Part shown: piece by piece, positions 2,283-17,402 of the stretch
How positions within the stretch are numbered: position 1 is the stretch's first letter
How the letters are laid out: every line of letters starts with the position of its first letter
DNA from: an uncultured Thiodictyon sp.
GTDB lineage: Bacteria > Pseudomonadota > Gammaproteobacteria > Chromatiales > Chromatiaceae
DNA: 37,498 nucleotides
Direction: 5' to 3'
Assembly: GCF_903946935.1 (NCBI RefSeq)
Contig: NZ_CAJAXH010000185.1
Location: forward strand, 1 to 37,498
Program-made: the position numbers and the translations under genes
Notes under the pieces: model-generated
The model's database searches: none
What the model was told of the DNA's origin: nothing
The model's input: only the letters and a program-made list of their open reading frames with translations

Positions 2283-3836
2283 TCAAGGCCCAGCCGGCGC
2301 ATCGGTCATTCCTTCGTGGAGAATGCGCCGCAATTCCTCAATGGCCTGGGGATGCCCAATACCACTGTGCCCGGCGGGGACGACGACCTCGGACTCCACC
2401 GTATCGAGATGCGCGCTGCGGTACGGGACCACACCGTCCGAGCTGGTCGCCAGGGTGCCCCGCCCGCGGTCGCCAATGATCGAATGGGACGGGACGCTCG
2501 GGCGGGTGCCATCGAGCAGACGCAGGAACTGCGATTGCGGAGACAGGCCGTGGATGCTGGTCGGCAGGCGCCCGTCCAGGCTGTCGGGAACCAGATGGGC
2601 ATAATGGGCCAACTCGCCGATCAGCGTTTCGGGCAGGCGGATCAGACGGATGCCCCAGGCGCCGATGCTGTTGGTGGCGAACGCACTGCCGCGATGCGGT
2701 GTGAACATGAAGACGACCCGGCTGACATCCGTTCTCGGTTCAAAGACCAGCGCGCGCCGTACCGGGTTGGTCTCGGGTAATTCCTTGATCTTTGGGTTGA
2801 TGGTCGCCGCCTCATCCAGCTCGACGTGGGAGACCTGCACGCGGGCGAGGATGCCGCCCATGCTGTGCCCGACCAGGATCATCGGCCGATGCACGCCATG
2901 GTAGCGCGTGGTGTCGTCCAGGGCCTCGCGCAATTGGAGTGCGGACAGCGGGACTGGCTGGCTGGTGGGGTAATAGAAGAACCAGAACTGGTAATGGGCG
3001 CGGATTGCCGCGTCGGCCAGCAGCGGCTTGACCACTGATCCCCACATCCTCGGCGTGGACATCAGGCCATGCACCAGGACCACCGGGGTCTTCGCAGGGT
3101 CGAAGGGCTGCAAGAAGACGATCCGTGGTCGCCCACGGAAGCGGTCGGGTCGCAGCAGATTGGTCAGTCCATCCCAGTTACGCGGACCGGTTGCGCGGGT
3201 GGCGTCCAGCGGCGCCTCCAAGTCCATCGCGACCGCGACCTTGCCGTACCGGGTGGGTACTGAGCGGATGCGGTCGGGGTCCACCAACGCGGCATCGCAG
3301 CAACCCGCGGGCGAGTGGTTCGGCCAGGCCAACAGGGTGAGCGGGACCTGATAACCCGCGAGCGGGGCATTGGCGCCACCGGGGACGATGCGACCCACCG
3401 CCGACAGCCCCAGACCGGCGCGGTGCAGGCCAGGCTCGGTCACGTCAGGGCGCATGACCGGCGCTATGTCCGCAAAGGTGGCGGGTGCATAGACCCCCGG
3501 CCGATCATTGCCGAGCGCGACCAACGCCGGGGCCGACAAGGGAGCCGACCCGGGGCCCCGCACGTGCTCAGGCCGGGCCGCGTCCGCCAGCAGTTCGGGC
3601 AGGTGGCTCGCCACCAAGTCCCGATAGTCGACCCTCGCTTGGGCGCGCTGCGGGTCGCTGCTGCGGGGCGAGGCGAGGACCCGCAGCGCCGCGTCGAGAC
3701 GGGCTCCGAGGACCGGCGTTTCAAGCCGATCCGCGGGCCGCGGCAAGGATTGGCAGCCGGCGAGCAGGAGGCACAGGAAGAGGCTCGCGGCCGTTCCCCG
3801 CACTGGGCCGGTCAACCTGAAAACAGCGGCGATCAC
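2283..3836 (-). CDS. Lipoprotein alpha/beta hydrolase (lipase/esterase-like)
   Basis: 517-residue secreted lipoprotein. The N-terminus carries a hydrophobic signal segment ending in a lipobox LAGC (Cys28 in this start choice), so it should be lipidated and held at an outer or periplasmic membrane face. The hydrolase core has the oxyanion segment VLVHGLMSTPRMWG, the nucleophile elbow GHSMGG (Ser about 325), and later SSDGVVPYRS and AGHSGIGH, which probably supply the catalytic Asp and His. Substrate is unknown; esters or lipids are likely. The listed start is GTG; a TTG eight codons in would also give a normal signal peptide. It is divergent from the DUF3611-like gene, with a palindromic repeat in the gap. 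Two other hydrolases near the second DUF3611-like gene have the same general fold. Confidence 0.85.
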   Translation of the reverse strand: MIAAVFRLTGPVRGTAASLFLCLLLAGCQSLPRPADRLETPVLGARLDAALRVLASPRSSDPQRAQARVDYRDLVASHLPELLADAARPEHVRGPGSAPLSAPALVALGNDRPGVYAPATFADIAPVMRPDVTEPGLHRAGLGLSAVGRIVPGGANAPLAGYQVPLTLLAWPNHSPAGCCDAALVDPDRIRSVPTRYGKVAVAMDLEAPLDATRATGPRNWDGLTNLLRPDRFRGRPRIVFLQPFDPAKTPVVLVHGLMSTPRMWGSVVKPLLADAAIRAHYQFWFFYYPTSQPVPLSALQLREALDDTTRYHGVHRPMILVGHSMGGILARVQVSHVELDEAATINPKIKELPETNPVRRALVFEPRTDVSRVVFMFTPHRGSAFATNSIGAWGIRLIRLPETLIGELAHYAHLVPDSLDGRLPTSIHGLSPQSQFLRLLDGTRPSVPSHSIIGDRGRGTLATSSDGVVPYRSAHLDTVESEVVVPAGHSGIGHPQAIEELRRILHEGMTDAPAGP

Positions 3837-3990
3837 GCGAATGCGCTAAGAATGCGAATGTTTTTCACGATACGAATCAACACGTCCGAAATAGTACGGT
3901 GCCACTAGGACGCAAGCTATACGCCGCAGCGGGTGACCGGACACCGGTGCTACGCAGCGCAGATCGCCAGAGCCTTCACTAAGCAATTGT

Positions 3991-4118
3991 CACGCCGAGG
4001 CGCCAAGCTCGCCAAGGTTCTTCAGTGCTTTATCGATGTTCGGCGACTCACCCGGCGGGTGAGCCGGACACTGAACGCATCCCATTGTCTTACTTGGCGA
4101 GCTTGGCGCCTTGGCGTG
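3991..4118. repeat. Inverted repeat, family B copy 1 (9-bp periodic arms)
   Basis: Left arm 3991-4016 and right arm 4093-4118 are inverted copies with one mismatch over 26 bp. Each arm is itself built from a roughly 9-bp step (CTTGGCGAG, CTTGGCGCC, TTGGCGTG). The loop holds a smaller palindrome around CTCACCCGGCGGGTGAG. The same element, with perfect 29-bp arms, recurs at 13767-13875. Confidence 0.85.
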
Positions 4119-4222
4119 AGCGATTCCCGGATTTAGGTTCAAGCATAACCGTGATCTTGCTCAATCGCCAAGTGGGTGGGCGATCGGGGTGGGCGATCGG
4201 CTGCGCGTTACTGCCAGCTCGC

Positions 4223-4250
4223 TTGTTTTTTTTTCGCTTGATGCTATCTT
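4223..4250 (+). promoter_or_regulatory. Possible sigma-70 promoter for the DUF3611-like gene
   Basis: TTGTTT (4223-4228) and TATCTT (4245-4250) are separated by 16 bp in the only AT-rich patch of this spacer. It would give a leader of roughly 85 nt before ATG 4343. Match quality is modest. Confidence 0.3.
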
Positions 4251-4342
4251 CGGCAACCGCTCCCTAAGTCCGGATCGGGGCCTCCCGGCTCCGCTTCGAT
4301 CGCTCACCCAGACGGACCGTCACGCGCGGCCAGGTGTCACTC

Positions 4343-4954
4343 ATGAGTATGTTGAAGCAAGTCGTTGAGGGTCTGCATGGCGCGCAGATCGAGGGTCTGG
4401 GCAAGACCTTTACCCGCTTGGGACGGATCGGTTTTTGGCTCCAGGTGGTGCTGGGCTCCGTCCCCTTGGTTGTGATGCTCTATGTCTTTGTGTTTTCAGG
4501 CAGCGTCTCGGGCCCGCGCAGCGGCCTGCCGATCGTCGGGCTGTTGAGCCTGGCCAATATGCTGGTGCTCCTGTTTACGATCGTGTGGTTCTATCGCTAC
4601 GCCGGTCTCGGTAAGCGGATTGCCGATCCCCAGTCGCGTCCGACCGAGTCGGCGGTGCTCGCGACCGTGTGGACTGGCCTGGTCGCGAGCAGCCTGGGCA
4701 TCCTGTTCTCCATGGTGGTGATGCTGCTGGAAGTGGGGCAACTCCTCTTCTATTTCCTCTCCGCACCCCAGGCGGGTATCGCGACCATTCAGACGGTGGC
4801 CGGCGTCTCCTCCAGCTGGGTCTCCGCGGTCGATCTGGTGAGCCTGTTGGCCCTGGTGCAGATGCTCGCCGCCGAGGTGATCGCCTTGGTGTTGGGTCTC
4901 TGGTTGATGTTCCGGACCACCCAGGTCGCCGGGGAGTTCCCGAAAGCCGTTTAG
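4343..4954 (+). CDS. DUF3611-like integral membrane protein, paralogue 1
   Basis: About 203 residues with four hydrophobic helices: roughly residues 28-52, 60-85, 105-135 and 160-190. The opening KTFTRLGRIGFWLQ resembles the DUF3611 family, described mostly in cyanobacteria and plastids and without a settled function. A close paralogue lies at 16497-17105 on the other strand; long stretches such as VWFYRYxGLxKRIADPQ and WVSAVDLVSL match. The paralogue begins MSML, so ATG 4343 (MSMLKQVVEGLHG) is chosen over the upstream GTG 4334. An AGG lies about 8 nt ahead. Both copies neighbour alpha/beta hydrolase genes, which hints at a shared envelope or lipid-related task; that is inference only. Confidence 0.75.
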   Translation: MSMLKQVVEGLHGAQIEGLGKTFTRLGRIGFWLQVVLGSVPLVVMLYVFVFSGSVSGPRSGLPIVGLLSLANMLVLLFTIVWFYRYAGLGKRIADPQSRPTESAVLATVWTGLVASSLGILFSMVVMLLEVGQLLFYFLSAPQAGIATIQTVAGVSSSWVSAVDLVSLLALVQMLAAEVIALVLGLWLMFRTTQVAGEFPKAV

Positions 4955-5152
4955 CGTGGACCTGGGCCCTTGGTCGGCCCCGAGCAATGTCGTCGGCGGC
5001 GCCGACGGCTTGGTCATCGCCAGGGACGGCGTCGAGAAGTCCCGGTGTGCCCCGTGGCGCCCGGTTTGTTGATCCATTCCATGATCAAGGCCGCGTTCCT
5101 GTACCAGTTCTGTCCCAGTTCACACAATCCTAGTGCAGGAGCCACCGTCACC

Positions 5153-8100
5153 ATGAATGCCCTATCCGCCTTCTCGGCGCCCGCCCGCGGTCTGATCGTC
5201 GCTGGGGCCGTGGCGCTGGTCTTGACCCTGATGAAGACCGCGGCGCCGCTGCTGGCGCCGATCCTGCTCGCCGTCTTCATCGCCATCGTCGCCACCCCGG
5301 CGCTGGCCTGGATGCGCCGCAAGGGCGTGCCGAAGTGGGGCGCCCTGATCCTGATCGCCTTCGTGATGCTTGATGTCGGCAGCCTGATCGCGCTGATGAC
5401 GACCGGTGCGCTCGAGGGCTTCAAGGACAGCCTGCCGGGCTATCAGGAACGCTTGACGGCCCTGGTCCAGCACTTCGGCGGCCTGATGGCGGGGACGGGC
5501 GTGGACCACCCGGACGCGGCGGCGACCGACCTGATGGACCCGGCCAAGCTCATGGCCTTTGTACCTCAGTTGTTGTCCAGCGCCAGCGGCGTCTTCGCGG
5601 ACGGGCTCCTGGTGCTGCTCACCGTCATCTTCATCCTGCTCGAGGTGCCGACGATGGCGCCCAAGCTGAAGGCGGCCTTTCACATCACCCAGGCCGGCGA
5701 GGCGCGCCTGTCGCGGATGCTGGATAACATCAATCGCTATATGCGGATCAAGGCCCTGACCAGCCTCGCCACCGCCGTCTGTATCTGGATGCTGCTGTGG
5801 TTTTTCGGGATCGACTTCGCCATCCTGTGGGCCGTGCTGGCCTTCTTCCTGAACTTCCTGCCGGTGGTCGGCAATATCCTGATGATGATCCCGGCGGTCC
5901 TGCTGGCGCTGGTGCAGGTCGACCTGAGCACTGCGCTGATGGTCGCGGCCGGTTACCTGGTGATCAACACCGCCATCGGCAATGTCATCGAGCCGCGGAT
6001 CATGGGCAAGGGGCTCGGCATCTCGACGCTGGCGGTCTTTATTGCCCTGTTGTTCTGGGGCTGGCTGTTCGGCACCGTCGGCATGTTCCTGGCGGTGCCG
6101 CTGACCACGGCCCTGATCATCGCGCTCGACGCGAGCGCCCACACCCGCCCGCTCGCCATCCTGATGGGGCCGGCGATCGCGGCGGCCCCGGCGAGCGCCG
6201 TTGCGGTGGCGTTGGACGCAGACGGGCCGGACGCGACCGCCAAGCCTTTGTATCGCGTCGCCGCTCAGGTTGACGGTAAGCCCCTGCCGGCCGCCGCGGC
6301 CTCCCGCGCCTTCGAACTCGGCGACCCCTACGCCCTGCAAGGCGACGCGGTCCTGCACGCCCTGCACAGCACGGCCGACGGCCTGACGGCCGCCGAGGCG
6401 GCCAAGCGGCTCGCGACCGTCGGTCCCAATCGGCTGCCGAGCCCACCGAAGGACGGGCCGCTCAAGCGCTTCGTGCAACATTTCAACGATATCCTGATCT
6501 ATATCCTGATCGCCGCCGCGGTGGCGACAGCGCTCAAGGGTTACTGGATCGACACCTGGGTGATCCTCGCGGTGGTGGTCATCAACGCCGTCATCGGCTT
6601 CATCCAGGAGGGTCGGGCCGAGGACGCACTGGAGGGCATCCGCAAGATGCTCTCGCTGCACGCCCACAGCCGCCGTGGCGGGGAGTGGGTGGAGGTCGAG
6701 TCGGCCGAGCTGGTCCCCGGCGACATCGTGCGGCTGCGTGCCGGCGACCGGGTGCCGGCGGACCTGCGCCTGCTCGAGGCGGTGAATCTGCGCATTGAGG
6801 AATCCGCCCTGACCGGCGAGTCGGTGCCGAGCACCAAGGGCAGCGAGCCGGTGGACGACGCCGCCGGCATCGGCGATCGGCGCGGGATGGCCTACTCGGG
6901 TACGCTGGTGGCGGCCGGGCAGGGCACCGGGGTGGTGACCGCCACCGGCGCCTACACCGAATTGGGCCGGATCAACCGGATGATCTCGGAGGTGCAGACC
7001 CTGGACACCCCACTGACGCGGCAGATGGCCGCCTTCGGCCGGGTGCTCTCGGTGATTATCCTGGGGATGGCCGTCGCGATGGTCCTGATCGGCTGGTTCC
7101 TGCACAGCTTCGGGCTCGAGGAGCTGATGATGGCGACGATCGGCTTCGCCGTGGCCGCCATCCCGGAGGGCCTGCCCGCCATCATGACCATCACGCTGGC
7201 ACTCGGCGTCCAGGAGATGGTGCGGCGCAACGCCATCACCCGCAAACTCCCGGCGGTCGAGACCTTGGGTTCCGTCACCGTGGTGTGCTCGGACAAGACC
7301 GGCACCCTCACCCGCAACGAGATGACGGCACGCCATGTGGTCACCCGGGTGGAACAGTACGACGCGGCCGGGATCGGTTATGCCCCGCAGGGTCACCTGT
7401 CGCTGCACGGGCAGCCGATCGCGGTGGCGGCCCACCCGGACCTGGAGGCCTTGATCGAGACGATGGCGGTCTGCAACGACGCCGAGATCGCCGAGGAGGA
7501 CGGCCACTGGCGGGTCATCGGCGAGCCGACCGAGGGGGCGCTACGCACCCTGGCCCGCAAGGCCGACTTCGCTGCGGCGGACTATGCGCGCCTGGCCGTC
7601 GTGCCCTTCGACTCCGATCTGAAGTTCATGGCCACGCTGAACCAACTGCCCGGGGGCGGCCGGCGCATCCTGATGAAGGGCGCGCCTGACCGGTTGCTGG
7701 AGCGCTGCTCCGGCCAACGCCGCGCCGACGGCACCGTGGAGCCGCTCGAGCGCGCCTTCTGGGAGGCCCACATCGACCGTCTCAGCGGCGAGGGCCTGCG
7801 GGTGCTGGCCGCCGCGAGCCGCGAGAGCGCGTCGGGTAAGGACGATCTGGGCGTCGCCGATCTGGATGGGATGGTGTTGCTGGGCCTGGTCGGCATCATC
7901 GATCCACCGCGACCGGAGGCGATCACGGCCATCGCCGCCTGCCACCAGGCGGGTATCGCGGTGAAGATGATCACCGGCGACCACGCCGGCACCGCCAGTG
8001 CCATCGGCCGCGAGATGGGCATCACCACGGACGATCGGGCCGTCACCGGGGCCGAGCTGGAGGCGGCCAGCGACGAGGAACTGCAAACCATCGTGGCCAA

Positions 8101-9016
8101 GTACGACATCTTTGCCCGCACCAGCCCGGAGCATAAGCTGCGGCTGGTCCAGGCCCTCCAGGCCAATGGCGAGGTCGTGGCGATGACCGGCGATGGGGTC
8201 AACGACGCCCCGGCGCTCAAGCGCGCCGACGTCGGCGTCGCCATGGGTATCAAGGGGACCGAGGCGACCAAGGAGGCGGCCGAGATCGTGCTGGCGGACG
8301 ACAACTTTGCGTCGATCGAGCGTGCGATCGAGGAAGGCCGGACCATCTACGACAATCTGCAAAAGTCGATCCTGTTCCTGCTGCCGACCAATGGCGCCCA
8401 GGCCCTGGTCATCCTGGTCGCGGTCCTGTTCGGCTTCACCCTGCCGCTGGCGCCGGTGCAGATCCTCTGGGTCAACATGGTGACCGCGGTAACCCTGTCC
8501 CTGGCGCTGGCCTTCGAGCCCGCCGAACCGGGGGTGATGAGCCGACCGCCGCGGCGTCCGGGTGCGCCCATTCTGGGCTGGTATTTCATCTGGCGCATCG
8601 CCCTGGTCTCGGTGCTGATCGGCGCGGCCACCACCGCGGTCTTTCTCTTTGAGGAGGGTCGCGGCTATTCGGTGGCAGCGGCGCAGACGATGGCCGTCAA
8701 CACCCTGGCGTTCGGGCAGTTGTTCTTCCTGTTCAACAGCCGCTTCCTGCACGCCTCGAGCCTGCCGCTCCGACTGTGGTTCACCAACCGCGTGGTCTGG
8801 TTGGCCGTCGGCGTACTGGTCTTACTGCAACTACTCTTCGTGTATGCACCCTTCCTGAATCGTTGGTTCCACACGGCGCCCCTGGGCCCGCGCGATTGGC
8901 TGTTACCGGTCGGCATCGGCGTCGCGATCTTCCTGGTGGTCGAGTTCGAGAAGGCCGTGGCGCGTGGGTTTGCGACCCCGGGCGGGCGGACCGCCGTGAC
9001 CGCGGCGAACGTCTGA
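5153..9016 (+). CDS. AI-2E/PerM-family permease fused to a P2-type cation ATPase
   Basis: A single frame of 1287 residues. Residues about 1-345 form an AI-2E/PerM/TqsA-type permease with multiple membrane helices, the family block LNFLPVVGNILMMIPAV and the signature IEPRIMGKGLGIS (Glu about 280). A linker follows (about 346-390). Residues about 391-1280 form a complete P-type ATPase: actuator TGES (554-557), M4 PEGLP (671-675), phosphorylation motif DKTGTLT with Asp714, hinge MTGDGVND (1011-1018), then the C-terminal membrane helices. ATG 5153 has an AGGAG site upstream, so the longer in-frame extension to 4970 is not used. AI-2E permeases are normally about 350 residues and P2 ATPases about 900, each alone. 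No stop or frame change separates the halves. M6 reads VNMVTAVTLSLAL, lacking the Asp used by calcium pumps, so the ion is unknown. Confidence 0.88.
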   Translation: MNALSAFSAPARGLIVAGAVALVLTLMKTAAPLLAPILLAVFIAIVATPALAWMRRKGVPKWGALILIAFVMLDVGSLIALMTTGALEGFKDSLPGYQERLTALVQHFGGLMAGTGVDHPDAAATDLMDPAKLMAFVPQLLSSASGVFADGLLVLLTVIFILLEVPTMAPKLKAAFHITQAGEARLSRMLDNINRYMRIKALTSLATAVCIWMLLWFFGIDFAILWAVLAFFLNFLPVVGNILMMIPAVLLALVQVDLSTALMVAAGYLVINTAIGNVIEPRIMGKGLGISTLAVFIALLFWGWLFGTVGMFLAVPLTTALIIALDASAHTRPLAILMGPAIAAAPASAVAVALDADGPDATAKPLYRVAAQVDGKPLPAAAASRAFELGDPYALQGDAVLHALHSTADGLTAAEAAKRLATVGPNRLPSPPKDGPLKRFVQHFNDILIYILIAAAVATALKGYWIDTWVILAVVVINAVIGFIQEGRAEDALEGIRKMLSLHAHSRRGGEWVEVESAELVPGDIVRLRAGDRVPADLRLLEAVNLRIEESALTGESVPSTKGSEPVDDAAGIGDRRGMAYSGTLVAAGQGTGVVTATGAYTELGRINRMISEVQTLDTPLTRQMAAFGRVLSVIILGMAVAMVLIGWFLHSFGLEELMMATIGFAVAAIPEGLPAIMTITLALGVQEMVRRNAITRKLPAVETLGSVTVVCSDKTGTLTRNEMTARHVVTRVEQYDAAGIGYAPQGHLSLHGQPIAVAAHPDLEALIETMAVCNDAEIAEEDGHWRVIGEPTEGALRTLARKADFAAADYARLAVVPFDSDLKFMATLNQLPGGGRRILMKGAPDRLLERCSGQRRADGTVEPLERAFWEAHIDRLSGEGLRVLAAASRESASGKDDLGVADLDGMVLLGLVGIIDPPRPEAITAIAACHQAGIAVKMITGDHAGTASAIGREMGITTDDRAVTGAELEAASDEELQTIVAKYDIFARTSPEHKLRLVQALQANGEVVAMTGDGVNDAPALKRADVGVAMGIKGTEATKEAAEIVLADDNFASIERAIEEGRTIYDNLQKSILFLLPTNGAQALVILVAVLFGFTLPLAPVQILWVNMVTAVTLSLALAFEPAEPGVMSRPPRRPGAPILGWYFIWRIALVSVLIGAATTAVFLFEEGRGYSVAAAQTMAVNTLAFGQLFFLFNSRFLHASSLPLRLWFTNRVVWLAVGVLVLLQLLFVYAPFLNRWFHTAPLGPRDWLLPVGIGVAIFLVVEFEKAVARGFATPGGRTAVTAANV

Positions 9017-9251: not shown

Positions 9252-10496
9252 TTGGAAAAGTCAGTCCTGACCAAGCGCGCCGCCGCGGTACGCGCGGCAT
9301 CGAGGGTCCGCCGGGTGTCCGTACCCGGCGTCCTCGCCTTGGCGGTCCTGCTCTGCGCCTGTCGGCCGGCCGAGGCGCCTAAGGTCGAGCCGGAGCCGAT
9401 CCGTCCGGTGCGCGTCGTCACCGTTGAGGAACTCCCGGGTGGCGAGACAGTCACCCTCACCGGCAATGTGCAGTCCCAGGACGAGGTCAATCTGGCCTTC
9501 CGGGTCGGCGGCCAGTTGCTCGAGCGCTCGGTGAGGGTGGGCGATCGGGTGCGCGCCGGTCAGGTGGTCGCGCGTCTCGACGCGGCCGACGCGCGCAACG
9601 CGCTCAATGCCGCCCGCGCCAGCCTGGCCGGCGCCATGGCACGCCTGACGGAGGCGCGTAATACCGTGGCGCGTTACGAGCCCCTACTGCCGCGGGGCTT
9701 CGTCTCCCGTGTCCAGTTCGATCGGGCAGTGGAGGCCCGGCAGGCCGCGCAGGCCCAGGTAGACGCGGTCCAGGCGCAGGTAGCCACCGCCGAGAACACC
9801 CTGTCCTACACCAATCTGGTGGCCGACGGCGCCGGGACCGTCACCGCCCGCGGGGCCGAGCCGGGCGAGGTGGTCGCCGCCGGGCGAATGGTGGTCCAAC
9901 TCGCCCGCCAAGGCGGACGGGATGCGGTCTTCGACGTGCCGGCCCGGGTCAAGGATCGGGCCTCCGCGGACGCCCCGGTCGAGGTGGTCCTAAGCTCCGA
10001 CCCCAAGGTCCGCGCCACCGGCCGGGTGCGCGAGGTCTCCCCTCAGGCGGACCCGGTAACCCGCACCTTCCGGGTCCGGGTGGGCCTGAACAACCCGCCG
10101 GACGCCATGCGGCTGGGGTCCACCGTCACCGGCTCGGTCCATCTGGGCGGTACCTCGGGCATCCAGGTCCCGGCCTCGGCGCTCACCGCCTCCCAGGGCG
10201 CGCCTGCGGTGTGGGTCCTGAACCCGTCGACCAACACGGTGGCGCTGCGCAACATCGATGTGGCGCGCTATGAACTGGACCGGGTGCTGGTCGCCCAAGG
10301 ACTCGATGCCGGGGAACTGGTGGTCACCGCCGGGGTCCAGACACTGCGCCCCGGGCAGCAGGTGCGGCTGTTAGGGCAGGGGGGGGCGACCAAGGCGCCG
10401 CTGAAGGCTGAGGCCCAACCGGAAATCCAGGCCGAGATCAAGGTTCCGGCGCCAACAGCGGCGCCGGCTCAGGTCAAGCCAGGGGCTAAACCATGA
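9252..10496 (+). CDS. RND efflux periplasmic adaptor (membrane fusion) lipoprotein
   Basis: 414-residue HlyD/AcrA-type adaptor. A signal peptide ends in the sequence LLCAC, so Cys37 is the likely lipidated residue. The body follows the family order: an N-terminal beta-barrel strand, a lipoyl half, a coiled-coil hairpin (about residues 105-180, rich in Ala/Arg), the second lipoyl half (the NTLSYTNLVADGAGTV region) and a beta-barrel. The tail is Ala/Pro/Lys rich and low in complexity. The TTG start at 9252 has a GAGG site 7 nt upstream. Its TGA overlaps the ATG of the pump gene, so translation is probably coupled. It would bridge the pump to an outer-membrane channel; no TolC-type gene is visible nearby. 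Confidence 0.9.
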   Translation: MEKSVLTKRAAAVRAASRVRRVSVPGVLALAVLLCACRPAEAPKVEPEPIRPVRVVTVEELPGGETVTLTGNVQSQDEVNLAFRVGGQLLERSVRVGDRVRAGQVVARLDAADARNALNAARASLAGAMARLTEARNTVARYEPLLPRGFVSRVQFDRAVEARQAAQAQVDAVQAQVATAENTLSYTNLVADGAGTVTARGAEPGEVVAAGRMVVQLARQGGRDAVFDVPARVKDRASADAPVEVVLSSDPKVRATGRVREVSPQADPVTRTFRVRVGLNNPPDAMRLGSTVTGSVHLGGTSGIQVPASALTASQGAPAVWVLNPSTNTVALRNIDVARYELDRVLVAQGLDAGELVVTAGVQTLRPGQQVRLLGQGGATKAPLKAEAQPEIQAEIKVPAPTAAPAQVKPGAKP

Positions 10497-13400
10497 CGGG
10501 TTTCAACCTTTCCGGCTGGGCCATCAGTAACCGCTCACTGGTGGTCTTCCTGATGATCGTGGCGGTCGGGGCGGGCGTGGGCACCTTCTTCAAGCTCGGC
10601 CGTGCGGAGGACCCGGCCTTCACCTTCCGGACCATGGTGGTGCGGGCGTCCTGGCCGGGGGCGACCCTCCAGGACACGCTCGACCAGGTCACTGAACGCC
10701 TGGAGCGCACCCTGCAAGAGGTGCCGAACCTCGACAACCTGCGCAGCTTCACCAATGCCGGGACCACGACCATCTTCGTGGATCTCAAGGGCAGCACCTC
10801 GCCCTCAGCCGTTCCGGATACCTGGTATCAGGTGCGCAAGAAGGTGGCGGATATGCGCCATACCCTACCCGTCGGCATCGTCGGCCCCGGCTTCAACGAC
10901 GAGTTCGGCGACACCTTCGGTATCATCTACGGCTTCACCGCGGACGGCTTCAGCCATCGGGAACTGCGCGACTATGTCGAGGACGTGCGTTCCCAGCTCC
11001 TGCGGGTACCGGACGTGGCCAAGGTCGACGTGCTCGGCGCCCAGGACGAGCGGATCTTCGTCGAATTCGACATGGCCAAGCTCGCTGGCTTGGGCTTCGA
11101 TCCCGCCGCACTCACCGCCGCGCTCCAGGCCCAGAATGTGGTGCGCCCCACCGGCGTCATCCAGACCGGGGACGAGGCCATCTCCCTGCGGGTCTCCGGG
11201 GCCTTCCGCTCCGAGGCGGATCTCCTCGCCGTCAACTTCGCCATCGGGGACCGCATGCTGCGCCTGGGCGACATCGCCCAGGTCCGCCGCGGCTACGCCG
11301 ACCCGCCCCAGCCGATGTTCCGCGTCAACGGCCAGCCGGCCCTGGGGCTTGCCATCGTCATGCGCGAGGGCGGCGACATCCTCACCCTCGGTGAGAACGT
11401 CGGCAAGGCCATGAAGAAGATCGTCGCGAACCTGCCGATCGGCATCGAGGCGACCCGCGTCGCCGACCAGCCGGTGACGGTCGATGAGGCCATCAACGAA
11501 TTTACCACCTCACTCTGGCAGGCGATCGCCATCATCCTGGCCGTGAGTTTCCTGAGCCTGGGTGTACGCGCCGGGACCGTGGTGGCCCTGTCGATCCCGC
11601 TGACGCTGGCCCTGGTATTCGCCATCATGGGTCTGGTGCATATCGACCTGCACCGGATCTCATTGGGTGCGCTGATCATCGCGCTCGGCCTGCTGGTGGA
11701 CGACGCCATGACCACGGTGGATGCCATGACCCGTCGTCTGGCGCTGGGGGAGGACAAGTTCACCGCCGCCGCCTATGCCTATCGGACCCTGGCCTTTGCC
11801 ATGCTCGCCGGCGCCCTGGTGACCATCGCCGGCTTCGTCCCCATCGGCTTCGCCCAGAGCACGGCCGGCGAATACACCTTTTCCATCTTCGCGGTGGTGG
11901 CCATTGCGCTGATCGTCTCCTGGCTGGTGGCGGTGGTCTTCGCGCCGGTCCTGGGGGTGGCGCTGCTCGTGGCGCCGAAAGGCGGTACCGGGCAGTCCCA
12001 AGCGCCGGGGGCGGCCATGCGCGCCTATCGTGGCTTCTTGAGTGGCGCCATGCGGGTGCGCTGGCTGACCATCCTGGTCACGATCGCGCTCTTCCTCGGC
12101 TCGCTCTATGGGCTACGACTGGTCCCGCAGCAATTCTTTCCGAGTTCGGATCGCCCCGATCTGCTGGTGAATGTCACCCTGCCGCAAAACGCATCGATCC
12201 ACGCCACCGAAAGCGCGGCGCAACGCCTCGACGCCATCCTCGGGAAAGACCCGGATGTGGACCATTGGAGCACCTATGTGGGCCAGGGCGCCGTGCGCTT
12301 CTACCTGCCGCTGGATGTACAACTCCCCAATCCATTCTTTGCCCAGGTCGTCATCGTCGCCAAGGACGTCGCCGCGCGCGATCGGCTGGCGACCAAGCTG
12401 GAGACGGTGTTGCAGGATGAATTTCCGAGCGCGGTCGGGCGGGTCGCACCCTTGGAATTGGGCCCGCCGGTCGGCTGGCCCATCCAATACCGGGCGATCG
12501 GCCCGGACCCGGTGCAACTGCGCGAGATCGCGCTCAAGCTGGCCCAGGGGATCGCCGAAGGCGGGGGCCGTCATGTCAATTTCAATTGGATGGAGCCAGC
12601 CCGGCAAGTCTCGGTGCGGATCGACCAGGACCAGGCGCGGCTCCTGGGGCTGAGTTCCCAGGCGATTGCGGCGGTGCTCAATACGAACATCTCCGGCACC
12701 GCCGTCACCCAGGTGCGCGACGGCATCTTCCTGATCGACGTGGTGACGCGCGAACAGGAGGGGCAGCGGCTCTCGGTGGCGAGCCTCCAGACCCTGCCGG
12801 TGGCACTGGCGAACGGGCGCACCATCCCGCTCAACCAGATCGCCACCTTCGAGTATGGCCAGGACTACCCACTCATCTGGCGGCGCAACCGGGTGCCGGC
12901 CCTCACCGTCCAGGCCGACGTGGGCCCCGGGGTACTGCCGGAATCGGTGGTCGAGGTACTCACGCCCAAGATCGCCGAGATCGCCACCGGGCTGCCCGCG
13001 GGGTATTCGATCGAGCCGGGCGGCACGGTGGAGGAAAGCGCCAAGTCACGCAATTCGGTGATGGCGGTGGTGCCGCTGATGCTGCTGATCATGCTCAGCG
13101 TACTGATGTTCCAGTTGCGCAGCTTCCCGCTGCTCATCATGGTCTTGAGTATCGTGCCGTTAGGACTCATCGGCGTGGTCGCCGCACTCTTGTTGGCGAA
13201 TAAGCCACTCGGCTTCGTCGCCATCCTGGGCGTGCTCGCCCTCATCGGCATGATCGCCAAGAACTCGGTGATCCTGATCACCCAGATCGAACAGGAGCGG
13301 CGGGCGGGTCAGTCAATCTGGGACGCCGTGGTCGAGGCCAGCAGTTCGCGCTTGCGCCCCATCATGCTCACCGCGCTGTCCACCGTGCTCGGGCTCATCC

Positions 13401-13585
13401 CGATTGCCCCGACGGTCTTCTGGGGTCCCATGGCCTTCGCCATCATGGGCGGGCTGCTGGTGGGCTCGCTCCTCACCCTGGTCTTCGTGCCCACGCTGTA
13501 TGTGACTTGGGAGTCACTCAAGGGCAGCGATCTGCGGGCGGTCCCCGCCGGGAAGCCTGACGGCGGGCCGGAGCCTTCAACCTGA
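10493..13585 (+). CDS. RND efflux pump, inner-membrane permease
   Basis: 1030-residue proton-driven transporter of the HAE/AcrB-like RND superfamily. It has the usual layout of one N-terminal helix, a large periplasmic loop (about residues 35-335), helices 2-6, helix 7 near residue 525, a second periplasmic loop and helices 8-12. The proton-relay acidic pair in helix 4 is present as LVDDAMTTVDAM (Asp403, Asp404). The N-terminal block around FKLGRAEDPAF is typical of the family. AGGGG precedes ATG 10493, which overlaps the stop of the adaptor gene. Substrates cannot be read from sequence; drugs, solvents or lipids are all possible. Confidence 0.93.
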   Translation: MTGFNLSGWAISNRSLVVFLMIVAVGAGVGTFFKLGRAEDPAFTFRTMVVRASWPGATLQDTLDQVTERLERTLQEVPNLDNLRSFTNAGTTTIFVDLKGSTSPSAVPDTWYQVRKKVADMRHTLPVGIVGPGFNDEFGDTFGIIYGFTADGFSHRELRDYVEDVRSQLLRVPDVAKVDVLGAQDERIFVEFDMAKLAGLGFDPAALTAALQAQNVVRPTGVIQTGDEAISLRVSGAFRSEADLLAVNFAIGDRMLRLGDIAQVRRGYADPPQPMFRVNGQPALGLAIVMREGGDILTLGENVGKAMKKIVANLPIGIEATRVADQPVTVDEAINEFTTSLWQAIAIILAVSFLSLGVRAGTVVALSIPLTLALVFAIMGLVHIDLHRISLGALIIALGLLVDDAMTTVDAMTRRLALGEDKFTAAAYAYRTLAFAMLAGALVTIAGFVPIGFAQSTAGEYTFSIFAVVAIALIVSWLVAVVFAPVLGVALLVAPKGGTGQSQAPGAAMRAYRGFLSGAMRVRWLTILVTIALFLGSLYGLRLVPQQFFPSSDRPDLLVNVTLPQNASIHATESAAQRLDAILGKDPDVDHWSTYVGQGAVRFYLPLDVQLPNPFFAQVVIVAKDVAARDRLATKLETVLQDEFPSAVGRVAPLELGPPVGWPIQYRAIGPDPVQLREIALKLAQGIAEGGGRHVNFNWMEPARQVSVRIDQDQARLLGLSSQAIAAVLNTNISGTAVTQVRDGIFLIDVVTREQEGQRLSVASLQTLPVALANGRTIPLNQIATFEYGQDYPLIWRRNRVPALTVQADVGPGVLPESVVEVLTPKIAEIATGLPAGYSIEPGGTVEESAKSRNSVMAVVPLMLLIMLSVLMFQLRSFPLLIMVLSIVPLGLIGVVAALLLANKPLGFVAILGVLALIGMIAKNSVILITQIEQERRAGQSIWDAVVEASSSRLRPIMLTALSTVLGLIPIAPTVFWGPMAFAIMGGLLVGSLLTLVFVPTLYVTWESLKGSDLRAVPAGKPDGGPEPST

Positions 13586-13883: not shown

Positions 13884-15368
13884 CTAATGCCCCGGCGCGG
13901 GCTGACCGCCGCCGACTGGGGTGTCGATCTGCTCGGTGACACGGTCCAGCAAATAGGGGAAGAAGGGATTGGATGACATGCGGATCAGCGAGTCCAGGCT
14001 GACGATCAGGACGCCGCGCTCGCCGCGCACGGCGATTGACCCCAAATGGACGCCGAAATTCTCGGACAGGTCGGGGGTCATACCATACAGCGAGTCGGTC
14101 ACGGGGAATGGCAGGGCCACATGGGAGAGCGAGAAGACATCGCCGGGATAGGTCAATCCCAACGGGCGCACCTGCTCCGTCGTCGCCCCGGCCTGCGTCA
14201 CCCGCTCGACCACCTCCGCGGAGCCGGCGCTGGCATTGGTCACGACCGATGTGCGGTAGCGCCGCGGGGCCTTCGGCAGCAGCCGCGCGAGCATGGTCTC
14301 GGTGCTCGGGCGCAGCAAGGGGCCGAATTCGGTGTGACGATTGAGATCGAACAACACCAACTCGCTGCCATTCTCCGGCAGGTGCGCATAGAGCGCATTG
14401 ACGACGGCCGGGGTACTGACCGTGAAGTCGGTGATCGATTGGAAGGTGAGGATCGGCGGCAGGGTGCTCAGTCGACCCTCCTGGGCGGCGCGGGCGAGCC
14501 GCGGTTGCAATGCGCGCGTGAGCAGTGACGATTGACGCGCCCCGTTGATCGGGAAGGAATTGTATTTGAACGGATTGAATTCAGGCATGATCGACAGCCA
14601 GGCGGCCTTGGCAAAGCGCGGCAAGAGGGCCGGCAGACCGGCGAACCCGGCAAAACGCGCCATGGCGGTAATGCCGATCATCGGTGAGATCAGAATGATC
14701 CGGTCGGCGCGCGGGAGCTTGGGGTCGTCGATGGCATCCAGTGCGTATTTCATCGCGAGCGCACCCCCGTTGGAGAACCCCACGATGTGCAGTGGCACCC
14801 CGGGGCCGACCCGGCGCCGGGCCTCGCGCACCGCCAGCCGGGTCGCGGCCGTCCAGTCCTCCCACTGCACCTGCGCGAGCCCGGCGGGCACGCTGCCGTG
14901 ACCGGGTAAGCGGGGGGCGACCGTCGCAAAGCCCCGCTCCTGATAGCGCCGCGCGATATGGCGCAGGCTATAGGGCGAATCGGTCAGACCATGGAGCAGC
15001 ACCACCACGCCGACCGGGGTGCCGGTAGGCTCCAACGTATACGAACGATTCCAATCCTGGACGAACCCTTCCGGATTGACGGGGCTGTCCTGGAAATAGC
15101 GATTGGCGGGGATGCGCTCCTCGGGTGCCAGGCGTTGCGTGACGTTGACACGGATCTCCTCGAAGATGGTCTTCTCCACCTCGAGATACTTTGCCCAATC
15201 TGCCTGATCGAGTTCATCGGCGGACAACTCGTGCGGTACAAAGGTATGCCAGGGCTCCAGCGGCGCACCTTGCTGGGCGTCATAGGCGCGTACACCCAGG
15301 AAGGTCACGGCCACCGCCAGGATCAGCACGGTGGCCCATTTCAATAGTGTGATCAGCTTGGATCCCAT
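13884..15368 (-). CDS. Membrane-anchored alpha/beta hydrolase
   Basis: 494 residues from ATG 15368. An N-terminal helix (about residues 5-25) anchors the protein or exports it. The hydrolase core shows the oxyanion segment VVLLHGLTDSPYSLR, a LPGHG motif, and the nucleophile elbow GFSNGG (Ser199). The later residues around DLNRHTEFG probably include the catalytic His. The LPGHG plus GFSNGG pattern recalls serine-aminopeptidase/monoacylglycerol-lipase-like hydrolases. The start is chosen because GGAG lies 7 nt upstream; the ATG 24 nt earlier would overlap the preceding gene. It is the last gene of a three-gene minus-strand run. Substrate is unknown. Confidence 0.82.
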   Translation of the reverse strand: MGSKLITLLKWATVLILAVAVTFLGVRAYDAQQGAPLEPWHTFVPHELSADELDQADWAKYLEVEKTIFEEIRVNVTQRLAPEERIPANRYFQDSPVNPEGFVQDWNRSYTLEPTGTPVGVVVLLHGLTDSPYSLRHIARRYQERGFATVAPRLPGHGSVPAGLAQVQWEDWTAATRLAVREARRRVGPGVPLHIVGFSNGGALAMKYALDAIDDPKLPRADRIILISPMIGITAMARFAGFAGLPALLPRFAKAAWLSIMPEFNPFKYNSFPINGARQSSLLTRALQPRLARAAQEGRLSTLPPILTFQSITDFTVSTPAVVNALYAHLPENGSELVLFDLNRHTEFGPLLRPSTETMLARLLPKAPRRYRTSVVTNASAGSAEVVERVTQAGATTEQVRPLGLTYPGDVFSLSHVALPFPVTDSLYGMTPDLSENFGVHLGSIAVRGERGVLIVSLDSLIRMSSNPFFPYLLDRVTEQIDTPVGGGQPAPGH

Positions 15369-15372
15369 TGTG

Positions 15373-16500
15373 TTACTCCGATTCGTGTTCATTCTGGGCG
15401 GGGGTCATGGACCGCCAGTCATGCAGCGTCTGCAGAATCGGCGCAATGGCCGGCGGCTCCGGGGCGCCTGGCAACTGCCGCAAGAGCAGCCCGCGATGCG
15501 ACGCGTTGAGCACCAGCGGCGGCGCCCCATTGGGGAGTCGCGCGGACTCCAGGGTCACGACGCCATCGCCCAAGTCCTGACCAATGCCGGACCACCAGGC
15601 CCTCAGCCGCTGCCGCAACTCATCGGACTGGACCTCAGCGGCGGCCGCCGCGAGCCCGGTGGAGAGGTCCGCGGGTGGGTCCAGTAGCTGGCCTTCGATG
15701 ACGCGGATTGGCACCGCCGCCGGCCAGGGCCGGGCGTTGAGCGCCCGGAGGAAATCGCTCCCCGGCCGCAGGTCGATCTTGGCCTCGCCGGTGCCGTCGC
15801 GCAGGGCCGCGAACAGTGAGAAACGGCGCCCCTGGCCGGTTGGAAATTGGTCGCGCAACTCCAGCCAGACCCGCAGCCGGGCCCATTCCGAGCCTTGGTT
15901 GGGGGTGCCGACGAGGATCGCGCCGGCCACCGAGGTACCCGCGACCCGCGCCGGCGCACCCACCGGATGACGCAACCGGGAGACGAAGTCCCGCGCGACC
16001 AGCCCGCCCATGCTATGCCCAATCAGCACCACCGGGCGCCCCGGTGGCAGGTCCAGCCAGTGTTGCGCCAGATAGTCGGCACTGCGGTCGATGCCCTGAT
16101 CGTTGGGATAGCGCAATTCCCAGACCTCGTAACCGGCGCCGCCTAAGGCCGGCACCAGGTCGTCCCAGATGCTTCCGGGCTCGTCCAGACCATGAATCAG
16201 CAGGACCCGGCCGACCGAGGCCCCGGCGGGCCGGTCCCGCAGATGGATGCCGTGCCAACCATCGTCGGGGGCCATCTCCCGCGGAAACCAGACGGCGAGT
16301 CGGTCATGGACCAGGACCCGCAGTTGGCGCTCCTGCCGCGGATGGCCCTCCGCCCACCAGGTCCAGAGCGTTGCCGCACCGATGAGTGACAACAGGCCGA
16401 TGGCCAGGACCCGGCGGCGACGCCGCCGGGATACAGCGAGGCCGAACCAGGAGGCTATGCGCATCGGTGGTCTTGGCTCGACCCCCTGGGTTTGCCTCAT
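15373..16500 (-). CDS. Alpha/beta hydrolase (triacylglycerol lipase-like)
   Basis: 375 residues with one N-terminal membrane helix (about 31-50) after a run of arginines, so the enzyme domain should face the periplasm. Core motifs are VLLIHGLDEPGSIW, the nucleophile elbow GHSMGG (Ser163), then GDGVV (likely Asp) and NASHRGLL (likely His). ATG 16500 overlaps the stop of the upstream DUF3611-like gene by an ATGA, which suggests coupling; an internal ATG at 16464 is an alternative. Its stop lies 4 bp before the start of the next hydrolase. The three genes therefore look like one operon. Substrate cannot be read from sequence. Confidence 0.82.
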   Translation of the reverse strand: MRQTQGVEPRPPMRIASWFGLAVSRRRRRRVLAIGLLSLIGAATLWTWWAEGHPRQERQLRVLVHDRLAVWFPREMAPDDGWHGIHLRDRPAGASVGRVLLIHGLDEPGSIWDDLVPALGGAGYEVWELRYPNDQGIDRSADYLAQHWLDLPPGRPVVLIGHSMGGLVARDFVSRLRHPVGAPARVAGTSVAGAILVGTPNQGSEWARLRVWLELRDQFPTGQGRRFSLFAALRDGTGEAKIDLRPGSDFLRALNARPWPAAVPIRVIEGQLLDPPADLSTGLAAAAAEVQSDELRQRLRAWWSGIGQDLGDGVVTLESARLPNGAPPLVLNASHRGLLLRQLPGAPEPPAIAPILQTLHDWRSMTPAQNEHESE

Positions 16501-17105
16501 CCCTTGGCGAGTTCGTCGGCGGTCTGAGTGGTGCGGAACATCAGCCAGAGACCGAGCACCAGGGTGACCACCTCAGCGCCGAGCGTCAGTATCAGGGCCA
16601 TCAGGCTCACCAGGTCGACCGCTGAGACCCAACTGGCAGACCCGCCGGTGGTCGTCTGGACGGCCTGGATGCCCGCTTGCGGAGCGGACAGAAAATAGAA
16701 CAGCAGTTGCCCCACATCCAGCAGCATCACCAGCATGGAGAACAGGAGACCCAGGCTGCTCGCCACCAGGCCAGTCCAGACGGTGCCCACCACCGCCGAT
16801 TCCGTGGGGCGCGTTTGGGGATCCGCGATCCGCTTGGCCAGACCGGTATAGCGATAGAACCAGACGATGGTGAACAGGAGTACCAGCAGATTGGCCGTGC
16901 TCAGAAACTCGACGATCGGCAGCCCGGTGCGCGGACCTGAGAAACTCCCTGAGAAAACGAAGACGTAGGACATCAGAAGCACTGGAATAGACCCCAGCAC
17001 CAACTGGAGCCAGAAACCGGTCCACCCGATGCGGGTAAAGGTCTTGGCCAGACCGTCGATCTTCGAGCTATGAAAGCCTGCAACAATTCTTTCGAGCATA
17101 CTCAT
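16497..17105 (-). CDS. DUF3611-like integral membrane protein, paralogue 2
   Basis: 202 residues, four predicted helices, closely similar along its full length to the protein at 4343-4954 (same start MSML, shared KTFTR, FSGPRxGLPIV, WFYRYxGLxKRIADPQ and LGLWLMFRTTQ). ATG 17105 is preceded by GAGGT at a good distance, so the 31-codon upstream extension is rejected. It is the first gene of a run that continues into two alpha/beta hydrolases, with an ATGA overlap to the first. The family has no settled function; the repeated pairing with hydrolases is the only clue here. Confidence 0.75.
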   Translation of the reverse strand: MSMLERIVAGFHSSKIDGLAKTFTRIGWTGFWLQLVLGSIPVLLMSYVFVFSGSFSGPRTGLPIVEFLSTANLLVLLFTIVWFYRYTGLAKRIADPQTRPTESAVVGTVWTGLVASSLGLLFSMLVMLLDVGQLLFYFLSAPQAGIQAVQTTTGGSASWVSAVDLVSLMALILTLGAEVVTLVLGLWLMFRTTQTADELAKG

Positions 17106-17402
17106 TACTTTACCTCGACCGCAGTGGGCGGTGTCGCTGGGGAGAGAGTGTGAATTGGCCACGGGGAGGTACGCGGCCGGTGGAGACAACGGTAGCATCG
17201 ACGGTCACGCAACAGGTCTTGCCGCTTCACGGCCAGGCACACGACTGGGCACTGCCGTCCCTTGGCCGCCGCGCCGCACCATAGGTCGCGTGTGAGAATA
17301 GCCAAAGCGCCGGCCCGCGTCCATTGTTGGCGCATCACTTCCACACCAAGACGCCAGGTAAGGCCAGCGAGCGGGACGGGCGCGGCTGCCGGCAAGCATC
17401 CC

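Follow-up and report, generated by a model that had tools for sequence, protein, structure and literature searches.

An AI-2E permease fused to a P2-type ATPase in two related purple sulfur bacteria, with a well-supported origin by a single deletion

Analysis of a 37,498-nucleotide stretch of DNA from an uncultured Thiodictyon sp. (assembly GCF_903946935.1, contig NZ_CAJAXH010000185.1; hereafter the window, which is contig C185 of genome G000, assembled in 321 contigs at 99.96% completeness) revealed one gene, at 5153–9016 on the forward strand, in which an AI-2E permease is joined through a linker to a P2-type cation ATPase. Sequence comparisons indicate that this fusion is real and very local, being carried by two related purple sulfur bacteria. 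Its origin as a lineage-specific fusion by one deletion, with the permease placed where unfused relatives have a DUF599 domain, is well supported by those comparisons. The product is rather probably a pair of working transporters tethered 1:1, each doing its own job.

Translation of 5153–9016 gave a single stop-free frame of 1287 codons (1287 residues plus stop) with permease signatures followed by ATPase motifs, as the first-pass annotation of this DNA had described it. The list of open reading frames extends the frame upstream to a TTG at 4970; the ATG at 5153 was taken as the start because a ribosome-binding-like AGGAG (5137–5141) lies 11 bases before it and because the second fused gene (locus L009, described below) preserves the start context, GTGCAGGAG...ATGAATGC. 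The TqsA-like AI-2E domain (PF01594; residues 14–327, 5192–6133, E 2.8e-51) scored 175.1 bits against a Pfam cut-off of 34.3 and covered profile positions 2–325 of 327, a full-length match that places the N-terminal half in the AI-2E family. The linker (residues 346–394, 6188–6334) leads into a complete ATPase (residues 395–1268, 6335–8956) that comprises Cation_ATPase_N (395–457), E1-E2_ATPase (499–692), Hydrolase (709–1026), Cation_ATPase (772–853) and Cation_ATPase_C (1097–1268), all of these features being on the forward strand. These five domains and AI-2E_transport exceeded their cut-offs, and an overlapping HAD match fell below its own. The motifs TGES (residue 554), PEGLP (671), DKTGTLT (714), MITGD (939) and TGDGVND (1012) were located; the DKTGT site, TGES and TGDGVND, with the hydrolase and membrane domains, assign this half to the P-type ATPase superfamily. 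Translation of the ATPase on its own, starting within the gene, was rejected, since none of the five in-frame start codons between 6164 and 6473 has AGGAG or GGAG within 20 bases upstream. The minus strand over the fusion contains open frames at 5162–7507 (781 residues) and 7541–8752 (403 residues), of a kind that GC-rich DNA often gives and with no evidence of genes.

The same fusion was found in a second uncultured Thiodictyon genome (G003; loci L009 and L027, L009 being G003:C489), where query residues 1–1281 are matched at 93% identity with no stop. The position of the junction is identical in the two genes, and their linkers share 65% identity across 43 aligned codons and differ by one 6-residue in-frame gap, which indicates natural divergence after a shared event. 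An assembly or sequencing artifact might be suspected from the fragmented state of both genomes (321 and ~580 contigs), but two different species with 93% identical proteins, differing linkers and a common junction leave it scarcely credible, and we rejected it. A scan of genome contigs with six short peptide patterns gave 18 loci, of which only L009 was fused in one frame. The proposal that two families that normally act alone are here genuinely fused is thus borne out: another species has retained the fusion, and neither half shows decay. Homologues are not always separate genes, a possibility that had been raised against the fusion, and no third fused homologue was seen among the matches listed.

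Unfused relatives point to how the joint would have arisen. In Lamprocystis purpurea (locus L012; genome G001) a 362-codon permease gene (2833–3921) is followed, after 420 bp, by a 1132-codon gene (4342–7740) for an N-terminal DUF599 domain (PF04654, E 5.5e-56) and a full ATPase; in G007, a genome of three contigs, a free permease gene and a DUF599::ATPase gene lie 756 bp apart. On the permease side of the breakpoint the L012 protein ends in '...PDATVKED*' where the window reads '...PDATAKPLYRVAAQVDGKPL...AFELGDPYALQ', and in an alignment of 3′ ends the window linker up to ~6240 aligns with the C-terminal tail of the free permease. On the ATPase side the DUF599 domain of unfused sisters ends in 'LLYRFDLRVDGEPARAAAAPGAFDLGDPYALQ', and the junction (6248–6300, forward strand) aligns from residue 366 (LYRV...) with the last DUF599 codons of the unfused relatives. 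Neither G000 nor G003 has DUF599 at the fusion locus; each has one DUF599, on a paralogous DUF599::ATPase that is 71–73% identical to the window ATPase. The DUF599::ATPase proteins of the same genus are direct relatives, 91–93% identical to the window over the ATPase and likewise equipped with an N-terminal membrane module, and differ in having DUF599 where the window has the permease. In the permease tree the fused pair stands together with support of 100/99.

A mechanism is proposed where the ancestor carried a free TqsA-like AI-2E permease gene beside a DUF599::P2-type ATPase gene on one strand, and one deletion took the last codons and stop of the permease, the spacer between the genes and almost the whole of DUF599, leaving the two frames in phase. 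The deletion would have measured ~1.1 kb relative to L012 and ~1.4 kb relative to G007, and the permease would thereby have taken the place of DUF599 at the N-terminus of the pump, as its membrane module. The first-pass annotation was right about the fusion itself, and the displaced DUF599 domain was missing from its reading. As for the other genomes of the genus, the DUF599::ATPase genes of G005 and G006 lie so close to the edge of a contig that the gene upstream is out of view, G004 has only a 71% paralog and G002 only fragments. Both G001 and G007 have two close free permease copies, one beside the DUF599::ATPase gene and one elsewhere; the two G007 copies cluster with each other (94/99), and the two L. 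purpurea copies hardly differ, a pattern that recent duplication or conversion would leave.

The distribution of the fusion is narrow. Among 194 genomes of the family, the whole protein was matched from residue 1 through the ATPase in two, G000 and G003, among the matches listed, in a search that a strongly diverged fusion could escape. The permease half alone gave 78 matches in 59 of these genomes, with frames above 1000 residues in the same two and a longest frame of 797 residues in the others. In a sample of species from the phylum, the permease half was matched 115 times in 108 of 398 genomes, once in a long frame, which was the window itself (all others at most 430 residues), and DUF599 was matched 85 times in 83 of 299 genomes, with only the G000 paralog in a frame above 650 residues; most DUF599 matches in this sample sit in frames of a few hundred residues. 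A further match listing, in which the window fusion itself does not appear, had no frame above 600 residues among the matches listed. These lengths are to be read with some care, as GC-rich frames are often open by chance and automatic frame lengths seem to join same-frame genes: automatic frames of 1640 and 1769 residues in G001 and G007 came to 1149 residues in a stop-to-stop check. As far as seen, DUF599::ATPase proteins appear confined to this bacterial family and the AI-2E fusion to two species. At search level, no description of an AI-2E and P-type ATPase fusion was found in the open-licence literature, nor one of the DUF599::ATPase architecture in the titles and abstract openings of the 15 papers listed out of 19 that mention DUF599.

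Substitution rates (Nei–Gojobori) place both fused halves under purifying selection. For the permease, dN/dS was 0.035/0.143 between G000 and G003 and 0.048/0.242 between the unfused L012 and G007; the corresponding values for the ATPase were 0.034/0.174 and 0.030/0.214. The linker of the fused pair (0.207/0.407) is more variable than the halves yet has kept its frame. The downstream adaptor and RND genes of G000 and G003 gave 0.045/0.284 and 0.042/0.305, and DUF599 gave 0.066/0.314 between L012 and G007. A fortuitous fusion that is decaying, or tolerated without benefit, would fit the simple deletion origin, the very narrow distribution and dN/dS ratios slightly above those of the sisters, but both halves have stayed in frame over a synonymous divergence of ~0.17 with ratios of 0.20–0.24, and we regard such a fusion as improbable.

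The best solved relative of the permease half is TqsA (PDB 7nb6; residues 14–339, E 8.2e-57), an entry with five chains, and TqsA is reportedly pentameric, going by the title of Khera et al. Together with the match to nearly the whole AI-2E profile, this likens the permease half to TqsA/YdgG-type AI-2E exporters; TqsA is a free protein of 344 residues in 7nb6, whereas in the window the C-terminus continues into the P-type ATPase. The PRK12287 model scored 241.3 bits, below its cut-off of 318. A Na+/H+ antiporter reading was rejected on the signature given for Na+(Li+)/H+ antiporters of UPF0118 in the accessible part of PMC7221264 (E179-R182-K215-Q217-D251-R292-R293-E296-K298-S307, motifs A–D): judged by eye against the printed motif consensus, not by alignment to the protein, the motif C Asp is replaced by Asn (NFLPVVGNI), the motif D Arg-Arg by Gly-Asn (GNVIEPRIMG) and the motif B Gln by Leu (KAL), with the Glu residues of motifs A and D retained. 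Absence of this signature and the proximity to TqsA make a small, polar, AI-2-like metabolite the best guess, and export of such a compound is the most likely activity of this half.

The ATPase half has SPCA1 as its best solved relative and shares the P-type motifs of the P2A-type ATPases (SPCA1/PMR1, SERCA, Listeria lmo0841), with a PMR1-type profile as its best named match. It nevertheless falls short of the P2A Ca2+/Mn2+ ATPase profiles, both equivalog scores being under their cut-offs (PMR1-type, 671.8 against 798.3 bits; SERCA-type, 609.7 against 703.4). At the acid positions of M4, M5, M6 and M8, which we take to be those of SERCA, the M4 Glu is kept, M5 and M8 have Gln, and Ala aligns with the M6 Asp of SPCA1. 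A comparison of 65 rows, one of them a DUF599 row too short to read, found Gln at both M5 and M8 in the fused pair, in 18/18 DUF599 rows with data, in 3/3 Thauera-type rows and in 2/2 Pantoea rows; in the 39 other rows these positions hold Glu at both (32), Gln at both (4), Gln then Glu (2) or Ala then Gln (1). Of the rows with data, a single one has the M6 Asp of SPCA1. The Gln residues suggest a changed cation or stoichiometry, and as they are common to the unfused DUF599::ATPase relatives, the alteration most likely predates the fusion. A Ca2+ pump reading was rejected in view of the scores below the profile cut-offs and the missing ion-site acids; the ATPase half most likely pumps a cation with ATP, and which cation is uncertain. 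The suggestion that the fusion might mark a pump of new specificity puts the change too late, as the unusual ion-site residues, already found in the unfused DUF599::ATPase relatives, most likely came first.

Tethering of two working transporters is the reading to which we give most weight, followed by replacement of a membrane module, with little left for energetic coupling. Both halves are complete and constrained, and judging from their families each would keep its own transport. The linker would be flexible and cytoplasmic, a topology that we assume, and would hold the two halves 1:1 in one complex. A permease assembly would carry five pumps, a number that follows from the TqsA pentamer and from the lack of a free close permease copy in G000, where the fused copy is the only permease match at E<=1e-85 (G003 has an additional copy at 63% identity). 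Co-location may matter locally, in that the pump could shape the ionic or electrical conditions under which the permease works.

Several observations weigh against this reading and the history that goes with it. An AlphaFold model of residues 1–1200 (40 rows) had a mean pLDDT of 64.5, good over the ATPase and mostly below 50 over the permease half; owing to this low confidence the model is silent on the packing of the halves and on any ion path common to them. The fused halves have higher dN/dS (0.24 for the permease, 0.20 for the ATPase) than their unfused counterparts (0.20 and 0.14), a hint of slightly relaxed constraint. In the ATPase tree the fused pair is unresolved, its two members being joined in 28% of 200 bootstrap trees, and the case for a single origin therefore rests on the common junction and the permease tree. 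Unfused neighbors are visible in two sister genomes only (L012/G001 and G007); these are sisters and not ancestors, and the exact length of the deletion is an estimate.

The fusion would be a coupled machine if its P-type ATPase powered or gated flux across the permease, in the way that KdpB works with KdpA. KdpFABC, as presented in PMC10654040 and, going by its entry, in PMC8385062, couples a P-type ATPase to the channel-like KdpA and so sets an example of such an ATPase working with a second membrane transporter, to which it is physically joined, as here. Its coupling is demonstrated and its subunits are separate, whereas in the present fusion coupling is hypothetical; Pfam identified AI-2E and no KdpA family in the permease half, and the match to kdpB reached 102 bits against 527.9. 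Persistence in two species with both halves constrained speaks for coupling as well; a simple deletion explains the joint without it, and the P2 domain set of the pump is itself complete. Going by the entries for PMC6592433 and PMC7858053, a P-type ATPase fused to another complete protein also occurs in the alveolate guanylate cyclase with a P4-ATPase domain, which involves other families and another function, in eukaryotes.

Gene neighborhoods also bear on coupling. We surveyed 44 regions around the ATPase or its relatives, hand-picked and mostly one per genus with four further loci of this genus, using one TqsA-like query at 1e-8; some regions are clipped by contig ends. An AI-2E gene beside the ATPase was found in three regions (fused in G003, adjacent in G001 and G007) and not in the other 41, which speaks against a standing functional partnership, and a conserved operon or functional neighborhood was rejected as unsupported in these regions. 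An open frame of 83 residues that matches PepSY_2 runs against the two genes in the gap between them in G007, on the opposite strand, and the pair is accordingly no operon there; an intact counterpart of this frame was not found in the 420-bp gap of L012. Five Pantoea plasmids, where a related ATPase gene is directly followed by an AI-2E gene, in reversed order relative to the fusion, could be taken in favor of coupling, but at least 80% of the pair is held by just 5 of 468 matching plasmid records. In 20 other listed plasmid rows the match stops at the ATPase, and blastn would miss a strongly diverged AI-2E gene. The Pantoea permease is 28% identical to that of the window and the adaptor and RND proteins 26–33%; the fusion, too, has RND genes downstream of it, both in the window and in G003, but the Pantoea arrangement of ATPase, AI-2E and RND genes is treated as a separate case and a possible coincidence, one to be kept in mind. 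On two of these plasmids (L056 and L057) the RND adaptor and permease genes are divergent from the ATPase/AI-2E pair, L057 has a second RND and ATPase set, and at a further locus (L075) an RND permease match lies ~4 kb from the ATPase. The 41 regions and the G007 frame leave the earlier proposal that the ATPase energizes or gates the permease unsupported, and we hold such coupling to be unlikely. Less likely still is a new ATP-driven exporter, in which the P-type cycle of a pump whose own ion site has lost two membrane carboxylates would be linked to a pentamer of the TqsA type, through either conformational change or the local supply of ions. Export by the AI-2E half would then be primary active, and DUF599 would formerly have had a comparable channel- or regulator-like role.

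Replacement of a membrane module differs from plain tethering in what the permease is for: the ATPase would need an N-terminal module for folding, siting or regulation, for which the permease substitutes in place of DUF599, its own transport being secondary. DUF599 is found at the ATPase in 14 of the 44 regions and is missing at the locus exactly where the permease was gained. It was not found in the other 30, so the ATPase has no general need of such a module; moreover, the permease half matches the full AI-2E profile and is nearly as constrained as the free copies (0.24 against 0.20). We consider replacement a minor possibility, if one that carries more weight than coupling. The DUF599 domain of L012 (gene start to 5055, 4342–5055) was modeled as a helical bundle with a mean pLDDT of 80.7. 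Foldseek found no match to this model at E<=0.001 among solved structures, nor was there one at that threshold in a viral fold library; chains of Orai, the calcium release-activated calcium (CRAC) channel, reached probabilities of 0.92–0.98 at E 0.45–0.99, which is not significant and serves as a lead only. When solved chains were searched with a DUF599 profile, the single hit (E 1.1) was unrelated; no paper with both Orai and DUF599 was found in the 6 listed out of 23, and the accessible part of PMC7016017 holds nothing on DUF599.

The surroundings of the fused gene are given as context only. Upstream, in the window as in G003, lies a gene for a DUF3611 protein (4334–4954), and downstream follow an RND periplasmic adaptor (9252–10496) and an RND efflux permease of the AcrB/AcrD/AcrF family (10493–13585), in the same order in G003 and all on the forward strand. 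Genes for an alpha/beta-hydrolase and a DUF3611 protein flank the fusion/RND cluster on both sides (2283–4954 and 13884–17198). The paralogous DUF599::ATPase of G000 (G000:C276, L060:7137-10568) is accompanied by genes for an HlyD-type adaptor, a MacB/FtsX-like permease and an ABC ATPase (L060:10617-13566), downstream of which it lies; the gene order around the G003 paralog (L104) is the same.

The fusion is thus real, narrow in distribution and of clear origin, its parts are ordinary, and no new pumping mechanism follows from fusion alone. A simple deletion would have exchanged a membrane domain for a whole transporter, giving a 1287-residue two-transporter protein that appears to be kept by selection. 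The comparison also brings to light a group of P2 ATPases with an altered ion site, for which the free permease, the DUF599::ATPase and the fusion would serve as matched natural controls for the role of N-terminal membrane modules.

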